64,000 bases of DNA from contig NZ_JAMJXC010000009.1 in the NCBI RefSeq assembly GCF_023571765.1, positions 62,001 through 126,000 on the forward strand, given 5' to 3'. This DNA comes from Xanthobacter aminoxidans (lineage in GTDB: Bacteria; Pseudomonadota; Alphaproteobacteria; Rhizobiales; Xanthobacteraceae). Within the stretch, counting starts at the first letter, position 1; each line of letters opens with the position of its first letter. The notes under the pieces are model-generated. The model was not told the DNA's origin. It worked only from the letters and a program-made list of their open reading frames with translations, and made no database searches. Of the stretch, positions 6,162 to 59,908 are shown piece by piece. The translations under genes and the position numbers were made by a program.

Positions 6162-6941
6162 TCAGGCGACGGCTTCGACTTCGCGATGTCCGAGCGCCTG
6201 CGAGGCGCGGCTGGCGGCGAGAACGGCTTCCTGGCGAAGGAGCGCCCGGTTCTGCTCGGCACGCGCGGCGGGAGCGGCGACAAGAAGAGCCGCCACCACC
6301 GCGCCTTCGGCGTCGCGCACGGGCACGGCGACCCCCGCGGCCCCTTCCACGGCTTCGTTCGAGCTGAAGGCGACGCCGGTGCGCCGGATCTCGGCGATGA
6401 TCTTTCGCAGCTCGGGCACCTTCGTCACGGTGCGGGCCGTGAGCGGCTTGAGGTCGGCGTTCTTGAAATAGGCTTCACGCCAGTCTTCAGGCTGGAAGGC
6501 CAGCAGGAGGCGGCCGGCCGCGGAGCAGTAGAGCGGGCGCGTGACGCCGGCCGGGACCGAATAGCGAACCAGCTGGGGGCTCTCGATCACGTCCACATAG
6601 GCGGCGAGGGCGGCGGCGCGATCGAGCACCGCAACGATGACGGTTTCGCGCGTCGCCGCCGCCAGATCGTGCGCGAACTGGCGGATGAGGGAGGGCTGAC
6701 TGCGGGTCGAGATGATGCTGGAGGCGAGGCTGAAGGCCCTCGGCCCCAGAGTGTAGACGCCGTGGATATATGAGAGGTAATCTTGTGCCACCAATGGCCG
6801 CAGCAAGTTCAGAAGGCTGCTTTTCGGAGATGCAAGCAGCACGCTCAGTCGCGCCAGTGTCAATCCGTCGGGAGTCTGCGAAATGACCTCGAAAATCCCG
6901 AGAATCCTCAGCGTGGACTTCGGTGCGCTTTCGATCACCAT
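6162..6941 (-). CDS. IclR-family transcriptional regulator
   Basis: DNA-binding regulator, 259 residues from the ATG at 6941 (MVIESAPKSTLRILGIFEVI); a TTG ten codons upstream has no better ribosome site. Residues about 8-70 form the winged helix-turn-helix (LTLARLSVLLASPKSSLLNLLRPL as recognition region), and about 90-250 the IclR effector domain, with YCSAAGRLLLAF and GVAFSSNEAVEGAAGVAVPV typical of it. It lies upstream of, and in the same direction as, the PimCD-like operon, 171 bp away, so it could control that operon. IclR proteins in catabolic clusters respond to small acids or CoA esters; the effector here is unknown. Confidence 0.92.
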   Translation of the reverse strand: MVIESAPKSTLRILGIFEVISQTPDGLTLARLSVLLASPKSSLLNLLRPLVAQDYLSYIHGVYTLGPRAFSLASSIISTRSQPSLIRQFAHDLAAATRETVIVAVLDRAAALAAYVDVIESPQLVRYSVPAGVTRPLYCSAAGRLLLAFQPEDWREAYFKNADLKPLTARTVTKVPELRKIIAEIRRTGVAFSSNEAVEGAAGVAVPVRDAEGAVVAALLVAAPAARAEQNRALLRQEAVLAASRASQALGHREVEAVA

Positions 6942-53399: not shown

Positions 53400-54260
53400 G
53401 TGATCGTCGATAGCCAGATCCATGTCTGGGCTGCGGAAACACCCGATCGCCCCTGGCCGGCCGAGCGCATGAGCCATCCTCAAAGGAGCGCCCCGTTTCT
53501 GCCGTCCGATGCGCTCTGCGAAATGGATGCGGCGGGTGTCGCCGGCGCGGTTCTCGTTCCGCCGACCTGGGAGGGTGACAGGAATGATCTCGCCCTCGCT
53601 GCCGCCCGCGCGCACCCCGGACGCTTCACCGTCATGGGCCGCCTCGCACTGGATGCGCCCGACGCGCGGGACCTCGTGGCCGGCTGGCGCGATCACCTGG
53701 GGCTCTCCGGCTTCAGGCTCACCTTCCACACGCCGGCGTTGCGCCGCCATCTCGATGACCCGTCTGCCTCATGGCTGTGGCGGTCCCTCGAAGACTCCGG
53801 CGCATCCGTCATGATTTCCGTGCCCGGCATGGCGCGTGCGCTCCAGCCCGTCGCCGAGCGCTACGAGGGGCTGAGGATCGCGGTCTGCCATCTGGCGAGA
53901 CCGATCGGCGGCCAGGACGTGGCAGGCTTTGCCGACCTTGACGATCTGCTTGCCCTCAGCCGGTTCGCCCATGTCTCGGTGAAGGCTTCGGCAACACCCT
54001 GCAACACGCGGGATGCCTATCCCTTCCCCCGCGTGCACCGTCATCTTCTGAGGATCCGCGATCAATTCGGGGCCGAGCGGATGTTCTGGGGATCGGACCT
54101 CACGCGCCTGCCCTGCTCCTACCGCCAATGCATCGATCTTTTCGCTGAGGCCCTGCCGGGCCTCAGCGAACCGGAGCGTGCACAGATCCTCGGGCGCTCT
54201 CTCTGTCGCTGGCTGAACTGGACGCCCGCTAGTCCCGGAAGCGGGGCGCGATCGCCTTGA
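53400..54260 (+). CDS. Amidohydrolase-family (metal-dependent hydrolase) protein
   Basis: TIM-barrel hydrolase of the amidohydrolase 2 group, 286 residues. I choose the GTG at 53400 (MIVDSQIHVWAAETPDRPWP) with GGAG eight bases upstream. The usual HxH after strand 1 is Gln-Ile-His, so one metal ligand is missing; later family features are LSGFRLTFHTPAL, CHLARPIGG and MFWGSDLTRLPCSY with the barrel-end Asp. Members include lactonases and decarboxylases (LigI/ACMSD type). Its 3' end overlaps the 3' end of the flavoprotein gene by 32 bp (convergent). Confidence 0.82.
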   Translation: MIVDSQIHVWAAETPDRPWPAERMSHPQRSAPFLPSDALCEMDAAGVAGAVLVPPTWEGDRNDLALAAARAHPGRFTVMGRLALDAPDARDLVAGWRDHLGLSGFRLTFHTPALRRHLDDPSASWLWRSLEDSGASVMISVPGMARALQPVAERYEGLRIAVCHLARPIGGQDVAGFADLDDLLALSRFAHVSVKASATPCNTRDAYPFPRVHRHLLRIRDQFGAERMFWGSDLTRLPCSYRQCIDLFAEALPGLSEPERAQILGRSLCRWLNWTPASPGSGARSP

Positions 54261-55155
54261 TGACGGCGGCGGCTTCGCCTGCTGCGGCCGCAAGTTCGCC
54301 GCAGTATCCGTCCCGCACCGCACCGATTGCCCAGATGCCCGGCGACGTGGTGGCGAAACCGTCGTTTGCACGTACGTGGCCGGTGTCCGTGCGGGCGACG
54401 TCCATGGGCAGGAATGCGCTGTTCGGGATGCCGCCGATGAGCGGAAACACTCCACGGCAGGCCACCTCCTCCAGTCGCCCGCTGCTGCAATCACGCAGGC
54501 GGACGCCCGAAAGTCCGTCATCACCCAGCAGGGCATCGACCTCCATGCCCCAGATGAAGCGCAGGTTTGCCTTGCCGGTGGCGCGATCAACGAGAGAGCG
54601 GCGTGCGCGCGCATTTCCCCGGACCACGACGGCCACTTCTCGGCAGATGTCGGCCAGCGCGGCAGCGGCTTGAAATGCGGCATCGCCGCCGCCGACGACC
54701 AGAACATCGCGCCCTCGGTAGAAGCCTCCATCGCAGGCCACGCAATGAGAAAGCCCGCGCCCCGCCCAAGAGGCTTCGTGTGGCACGTTCAGCAGGCGCC
54801 TGCGGCATCCGCTCGCCACCACCACCGCGCGGCACCGATGCGCGCCCGCTTCAGTGACAACGCGCCTCAGCGCGCCTTCCTGCTCGATCGCGATCACATC
54901 CGCCTCCACGAGGGTGACGCCCGCCTGGACCGTCGCCTCCAGCAGGCTCGCAGCGAGACCGTGGCCGGAGACGGGCGCGATGGATGGGAAGCCATCGACC
55001 CGGTCCAGGGTGGCAACCTGCCCGCCAAACAGGGGGCTCGCCTCAACGAGGACGACGGACATGCCGGTCTGCGCGGCATGCCAGGCCGCAGTCAGGCCGG
55101 CGATGCCGCCGCCGATGACCGCCACATCGTGAGCCTGGCGCTTGCGCATGGTCAT
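54229..55155 (-). CDS. Thioredoxin-reductase-like FAD/NAD(P)H disulfide oxidoreductase
   Basis: Flavoprotein of 308 residues, the size of bacterial TrxB. FAD motif VIGGGIAGLTAAW (13-25), GGQVATLDRVDGFP (44-57), redox-active pair Cys138-Val-Ala-Cys141 followed by Asp142 (SHCVACDGGFYRG), NADPH motif VGGGDAA (154-160) and the final FAD contact GIWAIGAVRDGYCGELAAAAG. It lies 31 bp downstream of the selenoprotein gene on the same strand, so it is probably co-transcribed and may supply electrons to the selenocysteine/cysteine centre. Whether it also reduces a thioredoxin is unknown. Confidence 0.9.
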   Translation of the reverse strand: MTMRKRQAHDVAVIGGGIAGLTAAWHAAQTGMSVVLVEASPLFGGQVATLDRVDGFPSIAPVSGHGLAASLLEATVQAGVTLVEADVIAIEQEGALRRVVTEAGAHRCRAVVVASGCRRRLLNVPHEASWAGRGLSHCVACDGGFYRGRDVLVVGGGDAAFQAAAALADICREVAVVVRGNARARRSLVDRATGKANLRFIWGMEVDALLGDDGLSGVRLRDCSSGRLEEVACRGVFPLIGGIPNSAFLPMDVARTDTGHVRANDGFATTSPGIWAIGAVRDGYCGELAAAAGEAAAVIKAIAPRFRD

Positions 55156-55186: not shown

Positions 55187-56923
55187 TCATGCCTCCCGAC
55201 CCGCGATCAGATCGTCCCAGGCACGGGGCAGCAGGATGCGCTTGCCCACCGGATAGCCGAGCGTGCCATTGTGGGAGAGCGTATAGGCGTTCGTCCGCAT
55301 GGGGTCTCCGGTCACCGCGATGGTGAAGTCGTCCGGGTGGAAGACCAGCGGCACCAGCCGTCCGGGATCGTCCGATGTATGGAATGATTTGGGGACCTTC
55401 CCGAGCCGTGCCAGGGCGGCGAGATCGCAATCCACGTGGTTCGTCCAGTCGCGCATCAGGCGTTCGAGCTTTTCGGCAGGCATGCGCGCATGCTCGAACA
55501 GATAGCGCTTCACGTCCTGCTTGGACCAGCCGGCGCCGGCAAGGCGCTCCGCCAGGATGGGGCTGAGGAGCAGCATCGGCCGCAACATCCCGAACGTGGC
55601 GCTCATGGTGAAGGTCATCTGCCAGGAGGTCTGGCGGAGGATCGCATCCGCGATGTAGGGCAGCATCGCCTCGGGTGTGTCGCCGTTGACCGAGACGATC
55701 ACGTCGCCGCCAGTGTAGCGAGCAATGCTCACCACGTTCTCGCCGCGGCTGAAGCCGAACTCCGCGCTCATCGGCTCCCAGCCGATGCGCGCGAGCACGT
55801 CCTCGTTCTCCGCGATCGCCACCCGCCAGGTGCCGCCGAAGGTCGCCTTGTCGGTCTTGTGCGGCAGGAAGCCCGCGACATTCCTCAGAAGAAGACGGAG
55901 GAACCGTCCGACGGACGTATTCGCCCTGAAGCCGTCACGCATCACCCCCTGCTCGAAATTGAATCCGAGCTGCTTGATGATGGGTCCATTGATGACGATG
56001 AGGGTTTCTGCGCCGGGCGTGTTGCCGCTGTGCTCGACGCCATATTCGGGATCGCACAAGGCCTCGGCGACGGCCAGCAGCACGGGCATGTAACGAGGGG
56101 CGCAGCCCGCCATCACGCCGTTCACCGCCACGCTCCACACGCTGGCGTTCCGCTGGTCCGGGAGCATCACGCCAAGGCTCGCGTCCGGCGCCAGATCCGT
56201 AAAGCGGAGGAAAGCCTCCACGCGGTCGAGGGTCGGCGGGACAACGGGGAGGCCGTCGCTCCATTCGTTCTCCTCGAAACAGGTGTTCACGGCGTCAAAG
56301 GATCCGGCGAACACGACGGATCGCTGCGCGGGCTCGGTGGACAGGACGGCGGCCTGGGGCTGTCGCGTGAGATTTTCCACGATCTGCGGGAAGGTCACGT
56401 CCGCAATGTTGCGTGCTAGCTCTTCGTCGCTCTGCACGCCGGGGTGGCCAGGGATCGCGGCAACCGGAAGGTTGGGCATGCCAAGGCCGACCGCGGTGAA
56501 CGCGGCCTGTTGCAGAAAGCCCTCGCAAACCAGTGTCGAGGACGGGATGCCTGCAGCCTCACACGCCGCGCTGGCCCGCAACACGGCGGGCGTGCAACTC
56601 CCTCAACACCCCAGACCGGAAATGGCCGCGACCGCGCCGAGCGCGGTGAGCCGGCTTCCCAGCTGGGCAACGAGCGCTTGCTCGTCGTTTCCATGGATGT
56701 TGCCGATTTCCCTCCAATGGATGAATTCCACGCCGGGGAACCGCTCCCGGAGCAATTGCTCCAATTGAAGGAAGATGCGGTCGCCCTTGAAGAGATAATC
56801 CCAAAGCTGAACGATCTTTAGACCCGACAGATCGGACGTGCGGGGCGCCAGCGGCTTGAGACTGCCGCGGCGCTCTCCGCGCGGCCAGACCACCTCGAAA
56901 TGGCCGTCAGTGCACTTCGGCAT
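55187..56923 (-). CDS. UGSC-family selenoprotein (in-frame TGA read as selenocysteine)
   Basis: One continuous frame of 578 residues starts at the ATG at 56923 (GGAGAG upstream) and runs to 55187 through a single TGA at 56605-56603. Around it the protein reads AISGLGC-Sec-GSCTPAVLR with Sec107, the motif that names the UGSC family; LGMPNLPVAAIPGHPG after it also fits that family as I recall it. Both sides of the TGA keep family-like sequence, so this is not an ordinary stop. Eleven bases after the TGA is an 18-nt hairpin (56591-56574). The UGSC domain covers about 1-190; residues about 210-578 form a second domain with EENEWSDGLPVVPPTLDRVE that I cannot name. Reaction unknown; Cys106, Sec107 and Cys110 look like a redox centre. 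The TrxB-like gene follows by 31 bp. Confidence 0.88.
56574..56591 (-). promoter_or_regulatory. Bacterial SECIS element
   Basis: On the mRNA strand GCCCGC, loop CGUGUU, GCGGGC: a perfect 6-bp stem with GU in the apical loop, starting exactly 11 nt after the UGA. The minimal E. coli fdhF element recognised by SelB is a 17-nt hairpin 11 nt after its UGA with GU in the loop, so size, spacing and loop all agree. Confidence 0.85.
56603..56605 (-). other. Selenocysteine UGA codon
   Basis: In-frame TGA, codon 107 of the UGSC gene, flanked by TGT (Cys106) and GGG AGT TGC (Gly-Ser-Cys). Read as stop by default gene calling, which would split the gene into a 106-residue and a 465-residue piece. Confidence 0.87.
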
Positions 56924-57273: not shown

Positions 57274-58050
57274 TTGACCGCGAAGGCTGCCATTCGGGTG
57301 CACGGTCTTACCAAGTGTTATGGTGTCGGGAGTGGAGCGCTGGTCGCGTTGAGCGATATCGGCTTCTCTGTTGGCGAAGGAGAGTTCACCGTCTTCGTCG
57401 GACCGTCGGGTTGCGGAAAGTCCACCCTGCTGAAAATTCTGGTGGGTCTCGACCGCGCAACGGCCGGGACCGCCGAGATCCAGGGGGAAGCGATCACCGG
57501 GCCGAGGCGCGACACGGGCGTCGTGTTTCAGTCGCCGGTCCTGTTTCCGTGGCGGACCGTGCTGGACAATGTCCTGCTGCCCATCGACGTGCTCCGGCTC
57601 GACCGGAAGCAGCATCTGGCCACGGCGCGCGAGCTGCTGTCGATGGCCGGCCTTTCCAGCTTCGAGCGGCACTATCCCTGGCAATTGTCGGGCGGCATGC
57701 AGCAGCGCGTCGGGATCGTGCGCGCGCTTGTGCATGATCCCAAGCTGCTGCTCATGGACGAGCCCTTTGGAGCCCTCGACGCGCTGACGCGCGAAAACAT
57801 GAACATGGAGCTGCAGCGCATCTGGATGGAGCACCGCAAGACCGTGATCTTCATCACCCACTCCATCACGGAGGCGGTGTTGCTGGCTGATCGCGTGCTC
57901 GTCATGACGCCGCGCCCCGGCCGCATCGTCAGGGATATCAGAATCGACATTCCGCGGCCGCGCGACCTTTCGGTCGCCAATACGCCCTTGTTCGGAGAAT
58001 ACGTGCGCGAGGTTCGCGAACTTCTGAACGCCACCGGAGCAATAGATTGA
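57274..58050 (+). CDS. ABC transporter ATPase, NitT/TauT (SsuB/TauB) type
   Basis: Cytoplasmic ATPase of 258 residues. The start is a TTG at 57274, supported by AGGAGAGG seven bases upstream and by overlap with nothing else; no ATG or better GTG precedes the conserved LTKCYG. Walker A GPSGCGKS (43-50), Q-loop VVFQSPVLFPWRT, signature LSGGMQQRVGIVRAL, Walker B LLLMDEPFGALD and the H-loop FITHSI are all intact. It energises the permease encoded downstream (TGATG overlap). Importers of this group carry sulfonates, nitrate, taurine, aromatic acids or thiamine precursors. Confidence 0.94.
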   Translation: MTAKAAIRVHGLTKCYGVGSGALVALSDIGFSVGEGEFTVFVGPSGCGKSTLLKILVGLDRATAGTAEIQGEAITGPRRDTGVVFQSPVLFPWRTVLDNVLLPIDVLRLDRKQHLATARELLSMAGLSSFERHYPWQLSGGMQQRVGIVRALVHDPKLLLMDEPFGALDALTRENMNMELQRIWMEHRKTVIFITHSITEAVLLADRVLVMTPRPGRIVRDIRIDIPRPRDLSVANTPLFGEYVREVRELLNATGAID

Positions 58051-58838
58051 TGTTCGGCATCCAGCATCACGTTCTACGGCTGCTTTTCATGGTGGCCGTC
58101 ATTCTCGGCTGGGAATTCCTGGCCCGCTTTTTCGAAGTCCCCGCCTTTATCCTGCCCACCCCGAGCGCCATCGCCGTGGCATTGGTCAGGGGCGTGCAGT
58201 CGGGTCTCTACATCTCGAACGCCTGGGTCACCCTCGCGGAGACCTTCCTCGGCTTTCTGCTCGGCGTCTTTCTTGCGCTGTCTCTGGGCACGGTCGTCGC
58301 GCTGAGCCGCCGGACGGAATTCTACCTCTATCCGTTCATCGTGATGTTCCAGTCCATGCCGAAGGTGGCTCTGGCTCCCATCGTGGTCATCTGGTTCGGG
58401 CTGGGCATGACCTCCAAAGTGGTCAGCGCCGCGCTCGTCGCCTTCTTTCCGCTCATGGTGAACACGATCGCCGGGCTTCGCTCCACCGACCCCGATCGCC
58501 TCAGCCTCATGAAGAGCCTCAACGCCAGCCCGCTTCAGATCTTCACCATGCTCCAGTTGCCGAATGCCCTCCCGTACATCATGGCCGGCATCGAGGTGGC
58601 GATGATCTTTTCGCTTATCGGAGCGATCGTCGCCGAGTTCGTGGGCGCGGAGGCAGGGCTTGGCATGCTGATCCAGAGCATGAACCTGTCTCTCGACGTG
58701 GCGGGGCAGTTCTCAATCCTGATCATACTTTCCTTCTTCGGGCTGGGATTCAGCGTGATCCTGCGCCTTCTAAAGAAAAAGATGCTCTTCTGGGATGCAT
58801 CCAGCCGTTCCGAAAAGAAGGGAGGAGAAGTCGCATGA
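58050..58838 (+). CDS. ABC transporter permease, NitT/TauT (SsuC/TauC) type
   Basis: Inner-membrane permease of 262 residues with about six helices, starting at the ATG at 58050 that overlaps the ATPase stop. The EAA loop is LMKSLNASPLQIFTMLQLPN with the usual G replaced by N-A-S region, and IPIVVIWFGLG-type VALAPIVVIWFGLGMTSK precedes it. FILPTPSAIAVALVRG near the N-terminus is characteristic of SsuC-type permeases. It overlaps the binding-protein gene by four bases, giving the usual ATPase-permease-receptor operon. Confidence 0.93.
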   Translation: MFGIQHHVLRLLFMVAVILGWEFLARFFEVPAFILPTPSAIAVALVRGVQSGLYISNAWVTLAETFLGFLLGVFLALSLGTVVALSRRTEFYLYPFIVMFQSMPKVALAPIVVIWFGLGMTSKVVSAALVAFFPLMVNTIAGLRSTDPDRLSLMKSLNASPLQIFTMLQLPNALPYIMAGIEVAMIFSLIGAIVAEFVGAEAGLGMLIQSMNLSLDVAGQFSILIILSFFGLGFSVILRLLKKKMLFWDASSRSEKKGGEVA

Positions 58839-59908
58839 AGAAGAAAATCCTTTGGACGGTGGCCGCGTCATGCGTGGTTGCCATCGGGGCCACGCTCCAT
58901 GTGGCTGCAGCGCCTGCGCTGGAAACGGTGAAGATTGGCATTTGCACGCCGGCCTTGACCATGGGCGTGGCCCCGTTCGCTGTTGCCGAGAAGATGGGCT
59001 ACCTCGCCGCAGAGGGATACAAGGTGGACCTGGTCGTGGCCGGCACTGCGACGGACTGCGCGAAGTATGTCGCGACGAGGCAATTCCCCTACGCCCAGTT
59101 CTCAATCGAACCGATCGTCACCATGCGCCAGCAGGGCGTGAAGATGACGACCTTCTATACGCACAACCAGGGCAATGTGTATGGCATAGCGGTGCCGGAA
59201 GACAGTCCGATCAAGAGCATTTCGGACCTGAAGGGCAAGAAGGTCGGCGTGACGTCGCTCAGCTCCGTCGGCGTGTTCGTTGCCCGCGCGCTGCTGCAGC
59301 AGGCGGGGTTGCAGTCCACGGATTTCACCCCGGTCGTGGTCGGCCAGGGTGCGCAGACGGCCGAACTCCTGCGCAGCAAGCAGGTCGATGCCCTGAGTGC
59401 CTACGACACCCAGTTCGCCCTGGTGCGGAATGCCGGCGTGCCGATGCGGGAACTTCCCGTGCCGGACGAGTTTTCCGGCATGCCAACAACGGGCTTCGTC
59501 GCCCTGGAAAGCGTGTTGCAGGCCAATCCCAAGACTGCGGAAGCGATTGGCCGGGCCTGGGCCATGGGCACGGTCTTCGCGATGGCCAACCCGGCCGCGG
59601 CGGTCAGGATGACCTGGGAGCAGTATCCCCAGACCAAGCCCTCCGGGAAATCAGACGAACAGGCGCTGTCCGATGACCTCAGCGTCCTGAAGGCGCGCCT
59701 CGAGAACCTGAAGCTTGAGAAAAGCCATGTTACCCGCTGGGGCGAGAACAACCCGGCTTCCTATAAGCGGTATCTGGATTTTATCACCAAGTGGAACATC
59801 GTGAAGCCGGGCGTAGATGCGTCAGAAGTCTTCACAAACGCATATGTCGCAGGTTTCAATACGTTCGATGTGGCCAAGGTCGAGGCGCAGGCCAAGGCCT
59901 ACCACTGA
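58835..59908 (+). CDS. ABC transporter substrate-binding protein, NMT1/SsuA type
   Basis: Periplasmic receptor of 357 residues, ATG at 58835 inside the end of the permease gene. Signal peptide MKKKILWTVAASCVVAIGAT then LHVAAAPALE. The NMT1/THI5-like fold shows in APFAVAEKMGYLAAEGYKVD, DLKGKKVGVTSLSSVGVFVA and GQGAQTAELLRSKQVDALSA. The system is divergent from the selenoprotein operon; this suggests, but does not prove, that it imports the selenoprotein pathway's substrate. Confidence 0.92.
   Translation: MKKKILWTVAASCVVAIGATLHVAAAPALETVKIGICTPALTMGVAPFAVAEKMGYLAAEGYKVDLVVAGTATDCAKYVATRQFPYAQFSIEPIVTMRQQGVKMTTFYTHNQGNVYGIAVPEDSPIKSISDLKGKKVGVTSLSSVGVFVARALLQQAGLQSTDFTPVVVGQGAQTAELLRSKQVDALSAYDTQFALVRNAGVPMRELPVPDEFSGMPTTGFVALESVLQANPKTAEAIGRAWAMGTVFAMANPAAAVRMTWEQYPQTKPSGKSDEQALSDDLSVLKARLENLKLEKSHVTRWGENNPASYKRYLDFITKWNIVKPGVDASEVFTNAYVAGFNTFDVAKVEAQAKAYH

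Follow-up and report, generated by a model that had tools for sequence, protein, structure and literature searches.

A probable selenoprotein gene of the UGSC family with an in-frame TGA in Xanthobacter aminoxidans, close to a second set of selenocysteine-decoding genes

Background

Selenoproteins of the UGSC family were described in 2008 in the GOS survey, together with a fusion of the UGSC domain to a conserved unknown domain (UGSC/Unknown_1; PMC2398784), and UGSC selenoproteins also appear in PMC9312934, PMC5029168 and PMC13188914. The family is covered by PF24696 and by the equivalog model NF041046 (UGSC_fam), and is characterized by a UGSC motif carrying either selenocysteine (Sec) or Cys. 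A comparable UxxC motif is found in selenoprotein B of the glycine, betaine and proline reductases (PF07355; PrdB, TIGR04483). Regarding the decoding apparatus, it has been reported that selC nested in selB is a known arrangement (PMC8124441), that multiple tRNA-Sec genes have been tabulated for eight bacterial genomes and two complete sel operons occur in Photobacterium profundum (PMC5330540), and that some Deltaproteobacteria carry a second selB beside selC*, a tRNA-Cys with U73 and 8/4 arms with a bulge (PMC7609411).

Here we analyse a stretch of 64,000 nucleotides of Xanthobacter aminoxidans (the window), on whose minus strand lies a gene (Table 1) that shares with the UGSC family its motif and a domain match running across an in-frame TGA, but differs from it in an extra Cys just before the Sec (CUGSCTPAVLRAS) and in a fused domain of 377 residues. 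The likeness to the UGSC/Unknown_1 fusion, a UGSC domain joined to a conserved unknown domain, was judged from the text description given in the survey rather than from an alignment. The literature searched, which lacked most subscription papers, did not mention UGSC genes linked to a second tRNA-Sec/SelB pair or adjoined by a selB, the recurrence of UGSC together with its partner domain and, in some cases, an adjoining flavoprotein gene, or a likeness between UGSC and the Sec domain of glycine/proline reductase B.

Table 1. Features of the locus. Positions are those of the window, except those prefixed C77, which refer to the window's contig.
Feature	Position	Strand	Remarks
UGSC-fusion selenoprotein gene, 578 codons and stop	55187..56923	-	Predicted readthrough of TGA at codon 107
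TGA codon 107, predicted selenocysteine	56603..56605	-	TGA in 22/22 homologous loci
Predicted bacterial SECIS hairpin GCCCGC-CGTGTT-GCGGGC	56574..56591	-	11 nt past TGA; codon constraint, kept in 23/23
UGSC domain PF24696, residues 10-186	56366..56896	-	3.6e-29
C-terminal partner domain, residues 202-578	55190..56320	-	Also occurs free-standing, next to other UGSC genes
Thioredoxin-reductase-like flavoprotein, CVAC motif	54229..55155	-	TIGR01292 212.7 bits, under cut-off 343.45
ABC transporter ATPase	57274..58050	+	Divergent neighbour
ABC transporter permease	58047..58838	+	
NMT1/SsuA-like solute-binding protein	58835..59908	+	
selB2	C77:130590-132461		Window's contig
tRNA-Sec2	C77:130438-130529		Window's contig
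Second UGSC gene, TGA, GDUGSC	C77:129824-130360		Next to tRNA-Sec2

A probable single gene across an in-frame TGA

As the initial annotation had it, two open frames (56923-56606 and 56602-55187) lie in the same phase on the minus strand with a single TGA (56605-56603) between them, which falls exactly within the motif Cys-TGA-Gly-Ser-Cys. Reading through this codon gives a product of 578 residues with the motif GLGC-U-GSC, the last residue of which is number 110. The ATG at 56923 is preceded by GGGGAG at a spacing of 6 nt. Past the TGA, the earliest start-like codons, GTG 56584 and TTG 56581, lie inside the loop of the hairpin described below. The statement that the second frame has no ribosome site near its beginning needs one qualification, as an AGGGAG ends 13 nt upstream of GTG 56584.

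The existence of a stop codon, the length of the second frame and this AGGGAG as a possible start would all suit a genuine stop, be it in a pseudogene, through a sequencing error or between two separate proteins. The AGGGAG was nevertheless not counted as a conserved start site, because it stands far from the GTG and just 4 of the 23 sequences compared retain TGAGGGAG. Moreover, a TGA occupies the aligned codon in all 22 homologous loci, homology extends on both sides of it in the 20 homologues that were aligned, and the codon conservation at the hairpin argues against a real stop. With the TGA present at every locus, a stop codon or sequencing error was rejected, and a genuine stop is barely credible; a sequencing error in particular, named at the outset as something that would overturn the proposal, is very unlikely given the homologues. 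The two frames are very probably one selenium-containing enzyme in which the internal "stop" is decoded as selenocysteine, and we hold with high confidence, from comparison of sequences, that insertion of selenocysteine at the TGA goes together with a redox or thiol-type role of the product.

The gene is a member of the UGSC family. PF24696 matched the fusion with 102.5 bits (gathering cut-off 25) in an alignment that crosses the TGA, in agreement with the earlier observation that UGSC-like sequence continues past this codon. The fusion scored only 47.4 bits with NF041046, whose cut-off is 125 bits, and the second UGSC gene of the genome also stayed below it (104.1 bits). The gene had been called unrecognised, which is true of its subfamily as far as automatic annotation goes, but not of the family, since the UGSC domain and a fusion of it were already published and PF24696 detects the domain.

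A conserved hairpin after the TGA

The hairpin had been reported with a spacer of 11 nt, six base pairs and GU in the loop, and it was found exactly so, the spacer being 56602-56592. Its upper six pairs are never broken in any of the 23 sequences. To evaluate codon constraint we used the 108 columns in which the amino acid is invariant and has at least four codons, in an alignment (A1) of 21 rows comprising the window and 20 of the 22 homologous loci; L060, where another in-frame TGA occurs close to the end of the contig, and the truncated L061 were left out. Just four of these testable columns were fully invariant at the codon level (111, 113, 114 and 116), all of them overlapping the hairpin, and mean codon conservation over codons 111-118 reached 0.89 compared with 0.65 overall, a value attained by 0 of 100000 random draws. 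The hairpin is supported because of this excess codon conservation and its presence in 23/23 sequences. Its folding energy was ordinary (z = -0.07; 93 of 200 shuffles folded equally well or better), the minimum-energy fold of the window's own stretch is a different, longer hairpin, and covariation of the pairs was not significant (75-77 of 500 shuffles). The assignment as a SECIS element thus stands on codon constraint and conservation, but not on an unusual folding energy.

Altogether, three features expected of a bacterial selenoprotein are seen here: a predicted SECIS hairpin close after the TGA, selA, selB, selC and selD in the genome, and a TGA that is conserved while other homologues carry Cys. 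The selenocysteine reading put forward initially gains support from the sel genes, from the TGA of the close homologues and from the codon constraint at the hairpin.

Homologues with Sec and Cys

A scan of genome contigs revealed 22 homologous loci in 20 genomes, mostly labelled as betaproteobacterial bins, with full-length or truncated genes at 57-61% identity. The comparison at codon 107 that had been suggested gave TGA in all of these close homologues, and either TGA or Cys in more distant UGSC genes. Of 397 genomes of the order searched, 6 gave matches at E<=1e-10, one of them the source genome. Among the short loci, UGSC genes near partner-domain genes carried TGA in L032, L034, L036 and L038, and TGC in L031, L033 and L037/L040 (one place); a UGSC gene was not seen in the short loci L035 and L039. 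The three of these genomes with TGA (G000, G032 and G257) all had tRNA-Sec, and SelB was present in G000 and G257 and not found in G032, which is split into 770 contigs. As for the genomes with Cys, G036 had both SelB and tRNA-Sec and G174 had neither; neither was present in G310.

Plasmids also carry these genes. Eight loci, from eight of the 24 plasmid records with a match, comprised two TGA forms (Acidovorax sp. T1 and Paracoccus versutus), five Cys forms (two Variovorax, one Neorhizobium with CSTC, and two haloarchaea) and one with neither, a fusion relative on a Sporomusa termitida plasmid (L124:5854-7578) that reads GDMGTSS where the UGSC motif would stand. The Acidovorax gene, a UGSC fusion with TGA (L120:7731-9260), lies on the conjugative IncP plasmid p2-T1 with IS1071- and IS91-type transposase genes nearby. 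In the p2-T1 gene table, which is incomplete by design, the fusion was entered as a hypothetical protein of 96 residues and the rest is absent, an example of how a gap in annotation hides the UGSC-fusion subfamily. In pTAV4 of P. versutus (L127), a UGSC gene with TGA (GLANUGSC) sits beside a partner-domain match, and the site is absent from the PLSDB gene table, which has two features for the whole record.

Two SelB proteins and two tRNA-Sec genes

The search for selA, selB, selC and selD that the initial annotation had called for found all of them, with one selA and one selD over cut-off, but selB (418 and 367 bits) and tRNA-Sec (81.0 and 78.8 bits) in two copies each, both tRNA-Sec also being detected by ARAGORN with anticodon UCA; a third Rfam match to tRNA-Sec (51.5 bits) was a tRNA-Ser according to ARAGORN. 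One set, on contig C9, consists of selB1 and tRNA-Sec1 near selA and a fdhA gene which, like the window gene, has an in-frame TGA and a downstream hairpin; there the Sec belongs to a molybdopterin enzyme, encoded near selA-selB1-selC1. The other set lies 4.4-6.5 kb past the end of the window and about 11.5-12 kb from the window gene, and two free-standing partner-domain genes also stand beside selB2, tRNA-Sec2 and the second UGSC gene. A second Sec-decoding gene set so close to a UGSC gene is unusual.

On C9 the selB1 frame (L014:6490-8631, minus strand) extends across all of tRNA-Sec1 (6577-6672), which is thereby nested in the way mentioned above; unlike selB1, selB2 ends before its tRNA.

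A second selB adjoining a second selC-like gene recalls the selB*/selC* pairs of Deltaproteobacteria, in which, according to PMC7609411, a selC*-type tRNA-Cys is involved. If the pair beside the UGSC gene were of that type, the UGA would be read as cysteine. The sequences and predicted folds of both tRNAs of X. aminoxidans show G73, G1:C72 and 8/5 arms besides the UCA anticodon, with neither U73 nor the 8/4 bulged form, which makes them tRNA-Sec rather than tRNA-Cys. Moreover, selA and selD are present, and a crude motif scan detected no HIGH/KMSKS motifs in loci L012 and L013. Cysteine recoding of the selC*/selB* type was rejected on the G73 and the predicted 8/5 arms, and we regard it as highly improbable.

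With selenocysteine kept as the preferred reading, the question arises of which SelB inserts it. The selB2 frame is intact and encodes SelB domains, and its product is 47% identical to SelB1. The two tRNA-Sec differ at 14 of 96 positions, and all six altered pairs still pair in the predicted common fold, two of them through changes on both sides. Furthermore, four of the 22 homologous loci (L043, L046, L047 and L048) have a selB adjoining UGSC genes, with the order UGSC-fusion (TGA), small UGSC (TGA), partner domain and SelB. These features speak against a merely redundant second pair, in which the UGSC genes, like fdhA, would both be decoded by SelB1 and their linkage to selB2 would be incidental. 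Of the homologue genomes, SelB over cut-off was found in 19 of 20 and tRNA-Sec in 18 of 20 (G412 lacked both and G411 lacked tRNA-Sec), in favour of the selenocysteine reading. Redundancy is in turn favoured by the number of SelB per genome, which was one in 14, two in five (>300 bits) and none in one, and indicates that one SelB can suffice; matches below 200 bits in frames of 324-487 residues, which we take to be EF-Tu-like, were excluded from these counts. All predicted fdhA and UGSC hairpins likewise have GU in the loop, and ARAGORN found no tRNA-Sec in L043, L046, L047 or L048, among whose genomes only G403 has two tRNA-Sec genes, both on other contigs. A linked second tRNA-Sec is therefore seen only in the source genome. 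On this evidence redundancy comes close to an even chance, and the view that the selB2/tRNA-Sec2 pair may serve the UGSC genes is a tentative one, somewhat less probable. If SelB2 with its own tRNA-Sec did serve the adjoining genes, one could ask whether separate selenocysteine codes exist for separate pathways.

In a tree of SelB proteins, the four UGSC-linked SelB form one group with 13 more, each from another genome that has just one SelB (17 rows, 99/97), and SelB2 falls outside that group on a long, poorly placed branch (87/73, with a long-branch warning). Since the four group apart from SelB2, we cautiously take the tree to mean that SelB was recruited to UGSC genes on separate occasions.

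Partner domain and neighbouring genes

The C-terminal 377 residues had no Pfam match at E<=1, and NCBIfam gave chance-level matches only (0.067). The UGSC and partner domains recur together, and in some cases a flavoprotein gene adjoins them. An AlphaFold model of the C-terminal domain alone (pLDDT 79.8) retrieved fumarate hydratases, which we take to be class I, at ranks 1-23 among PDB structures, with weak scores (best E 2.8e-4, TM <=0.31). The class I fumarase fold is expected to have three cysteines for its FeS cluster; only one Cys is invariant in an alignment (A6) of the window gene, 17 of the 22 fusions and four free-standing partner domains. These model-based matches are weak and were not relied on. 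For the whole fusion, Foldseek gave no PDB match at E<=0.001, and a sequence search of solved structures returned 0 matches at E<=1.

After a gap of 31 nt from the fusion gene starts the gene for the thioredoxin-reductase-like flavoprotein, which possibly belongs to the same operon and could be the electron donor of the fusion. It was found by tblastn (1e-15) in one of the 22 homologous loci, L057, at 50% identity and in the same order; with the same threshold the window's ABC genes (ATPase, permease and solute-binding protein) were found in none of the 22, several of these loci ending near the gene. Flavoproteins occur by other UGSC genes as well: an annotated NAD(P)/FAD oxidoreductase next after the UGSC gene in Haloterrigena, an annotated trxB within the UGSC cluster of Variovorax SRS16, oxidoreductases annotated as NAD(P)/FAD- or FAD-dependent near the fusions of V. 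boronicumulans and Sporomusa, and, in the source genome, a full thioredoxin reductase (388.8 bits, cut-off 343.45) beside the second UGSC cluster. A TctC-family protein cluster (c3) is represented in 7 of the 22 loci, in five of them immediately upstream of the fusion as read from maps, and its members matched TctC in each of the four loci tested. Acyl-CoA dehydrogenases and acetate-CoA-ligase-type genes are present in some UGSC neighbourhoods. Because of these flavoprotein, TctC, acyl-CoA dehydrogenase and CoA-ligase-type neighbours, the genomic context suggests a catabolic enzyme fed with reductant.

Among NCBIfam families, the neighbouring ABC ATPase and permease scored best with SaoA and SaoP, a likeness to the selenocysteine-assisted organometal (SAO) system. 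Both scores lie far under cut-off (238.8 of 360 and 122.1 of 295 bits, respectively), and this candidate was rejected.

The NMT1-type solute-binding protein of the window and another one at L013:476-1621, one near each UGSC cluster, look similar by eye, hinting that both clusters serve related substrates.

Possible chemistry and likeness to reductase B proteins

When UGSC domains were compared with two proteins of the order that resemble PF07355/PrdB (L118 with Cys and L119 with TGA), they aligned over the UxxC/CxxC motif. With these two sequences as a PrdB/GrdB-type template, hhalign gave a probability of 76% and a score of 42.1 for the UGSC domains, and 59% and 42.5 for the whole fusion; the maximum score was 20.7 in 200 column shuffles and 23.9 among 18 other proteins of the source genome. 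L118 alone as template gave a probability of 12%, TIGR01917 matched one small UGSC protein at only 0.029, and the Pfam GRDB model (PF07355) had no match on the fusion at E<=1. The UGSC domain thus weakly resembles, above controls and at the level of sequence profiles, the Sec domain of glycine/proline reductase B proteins, from which the fusion differs in its partner domain and in the missing GRDB match.

A mechanism can be proposed in which SelB with Sec-tRNA-Sec would bind the hairpin 11 nt past UGA codon 107 and selenocysteine would be inserted, as the comparative evidence indicates. The U107 selenolate would then be the nucleophile and C110 of the UxxC motif the resolving thiol, the fused C-terminal domain would bind or activate the substrate, and the adjacent flavoprotein would use NAD(P)H to reduce the Se-S bond so formed. 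In this scheme the enzyme would be reductive, with a selenolate as nucleophile, a cysteine that resolves the bond and recycling by the flavoprotein. By analogy with the glycine/proline reductase B proteins, its chemistry might tentatively be to cleave, by reduction, a bond to carbon in a small organic acid that the cell imports. The recurrent partners and the likeness to reductase B give this mechanism a testable form.

The UxxC motif and the thioredoxin-reductase-like neighbour would fit with UGSC proteins being thioredoxin-fold enzymes of thiol-disulfide exchange or peroxide detoxification instead of reductive catabolic ones. The predicted UGSC domain, in which strands and helices alternate and U107 comes directly past strand 99-105 (AlphaFold, whole-model pLDDT 77.6), counts against such a role, as do the profile similarity to PrdB/GrdB-type proteins and the presence of uptake proteins and a CoA ligase among the neighbours, and we consider it unlikely, albeit to be taken seriously.

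For the reductive, catabolic reading, the most extended version would combine two insulated Sec-decoding lines, in which SelB1/tRNA-Sec1 serves formate dehydrogenase and SelB2/tRNA-Sec2 is reserved for the UGSC enzymes, another lineage having separately recruited a UGSC-dedicated SelB, with UGSC enzymes as a new branch of the glycine/proline reductase B proteins in which a new activating domain replaces the pyruvoyl subunit. As a whole this combination is improbable.

Apart from the UGSC genes, the PrdB/GrdB-like gene used above as template (L119:730-1950, minus strand, genome G032) is split by a TGA within CPV-TGA-PQC, and apparently encodes another selenoprotein.
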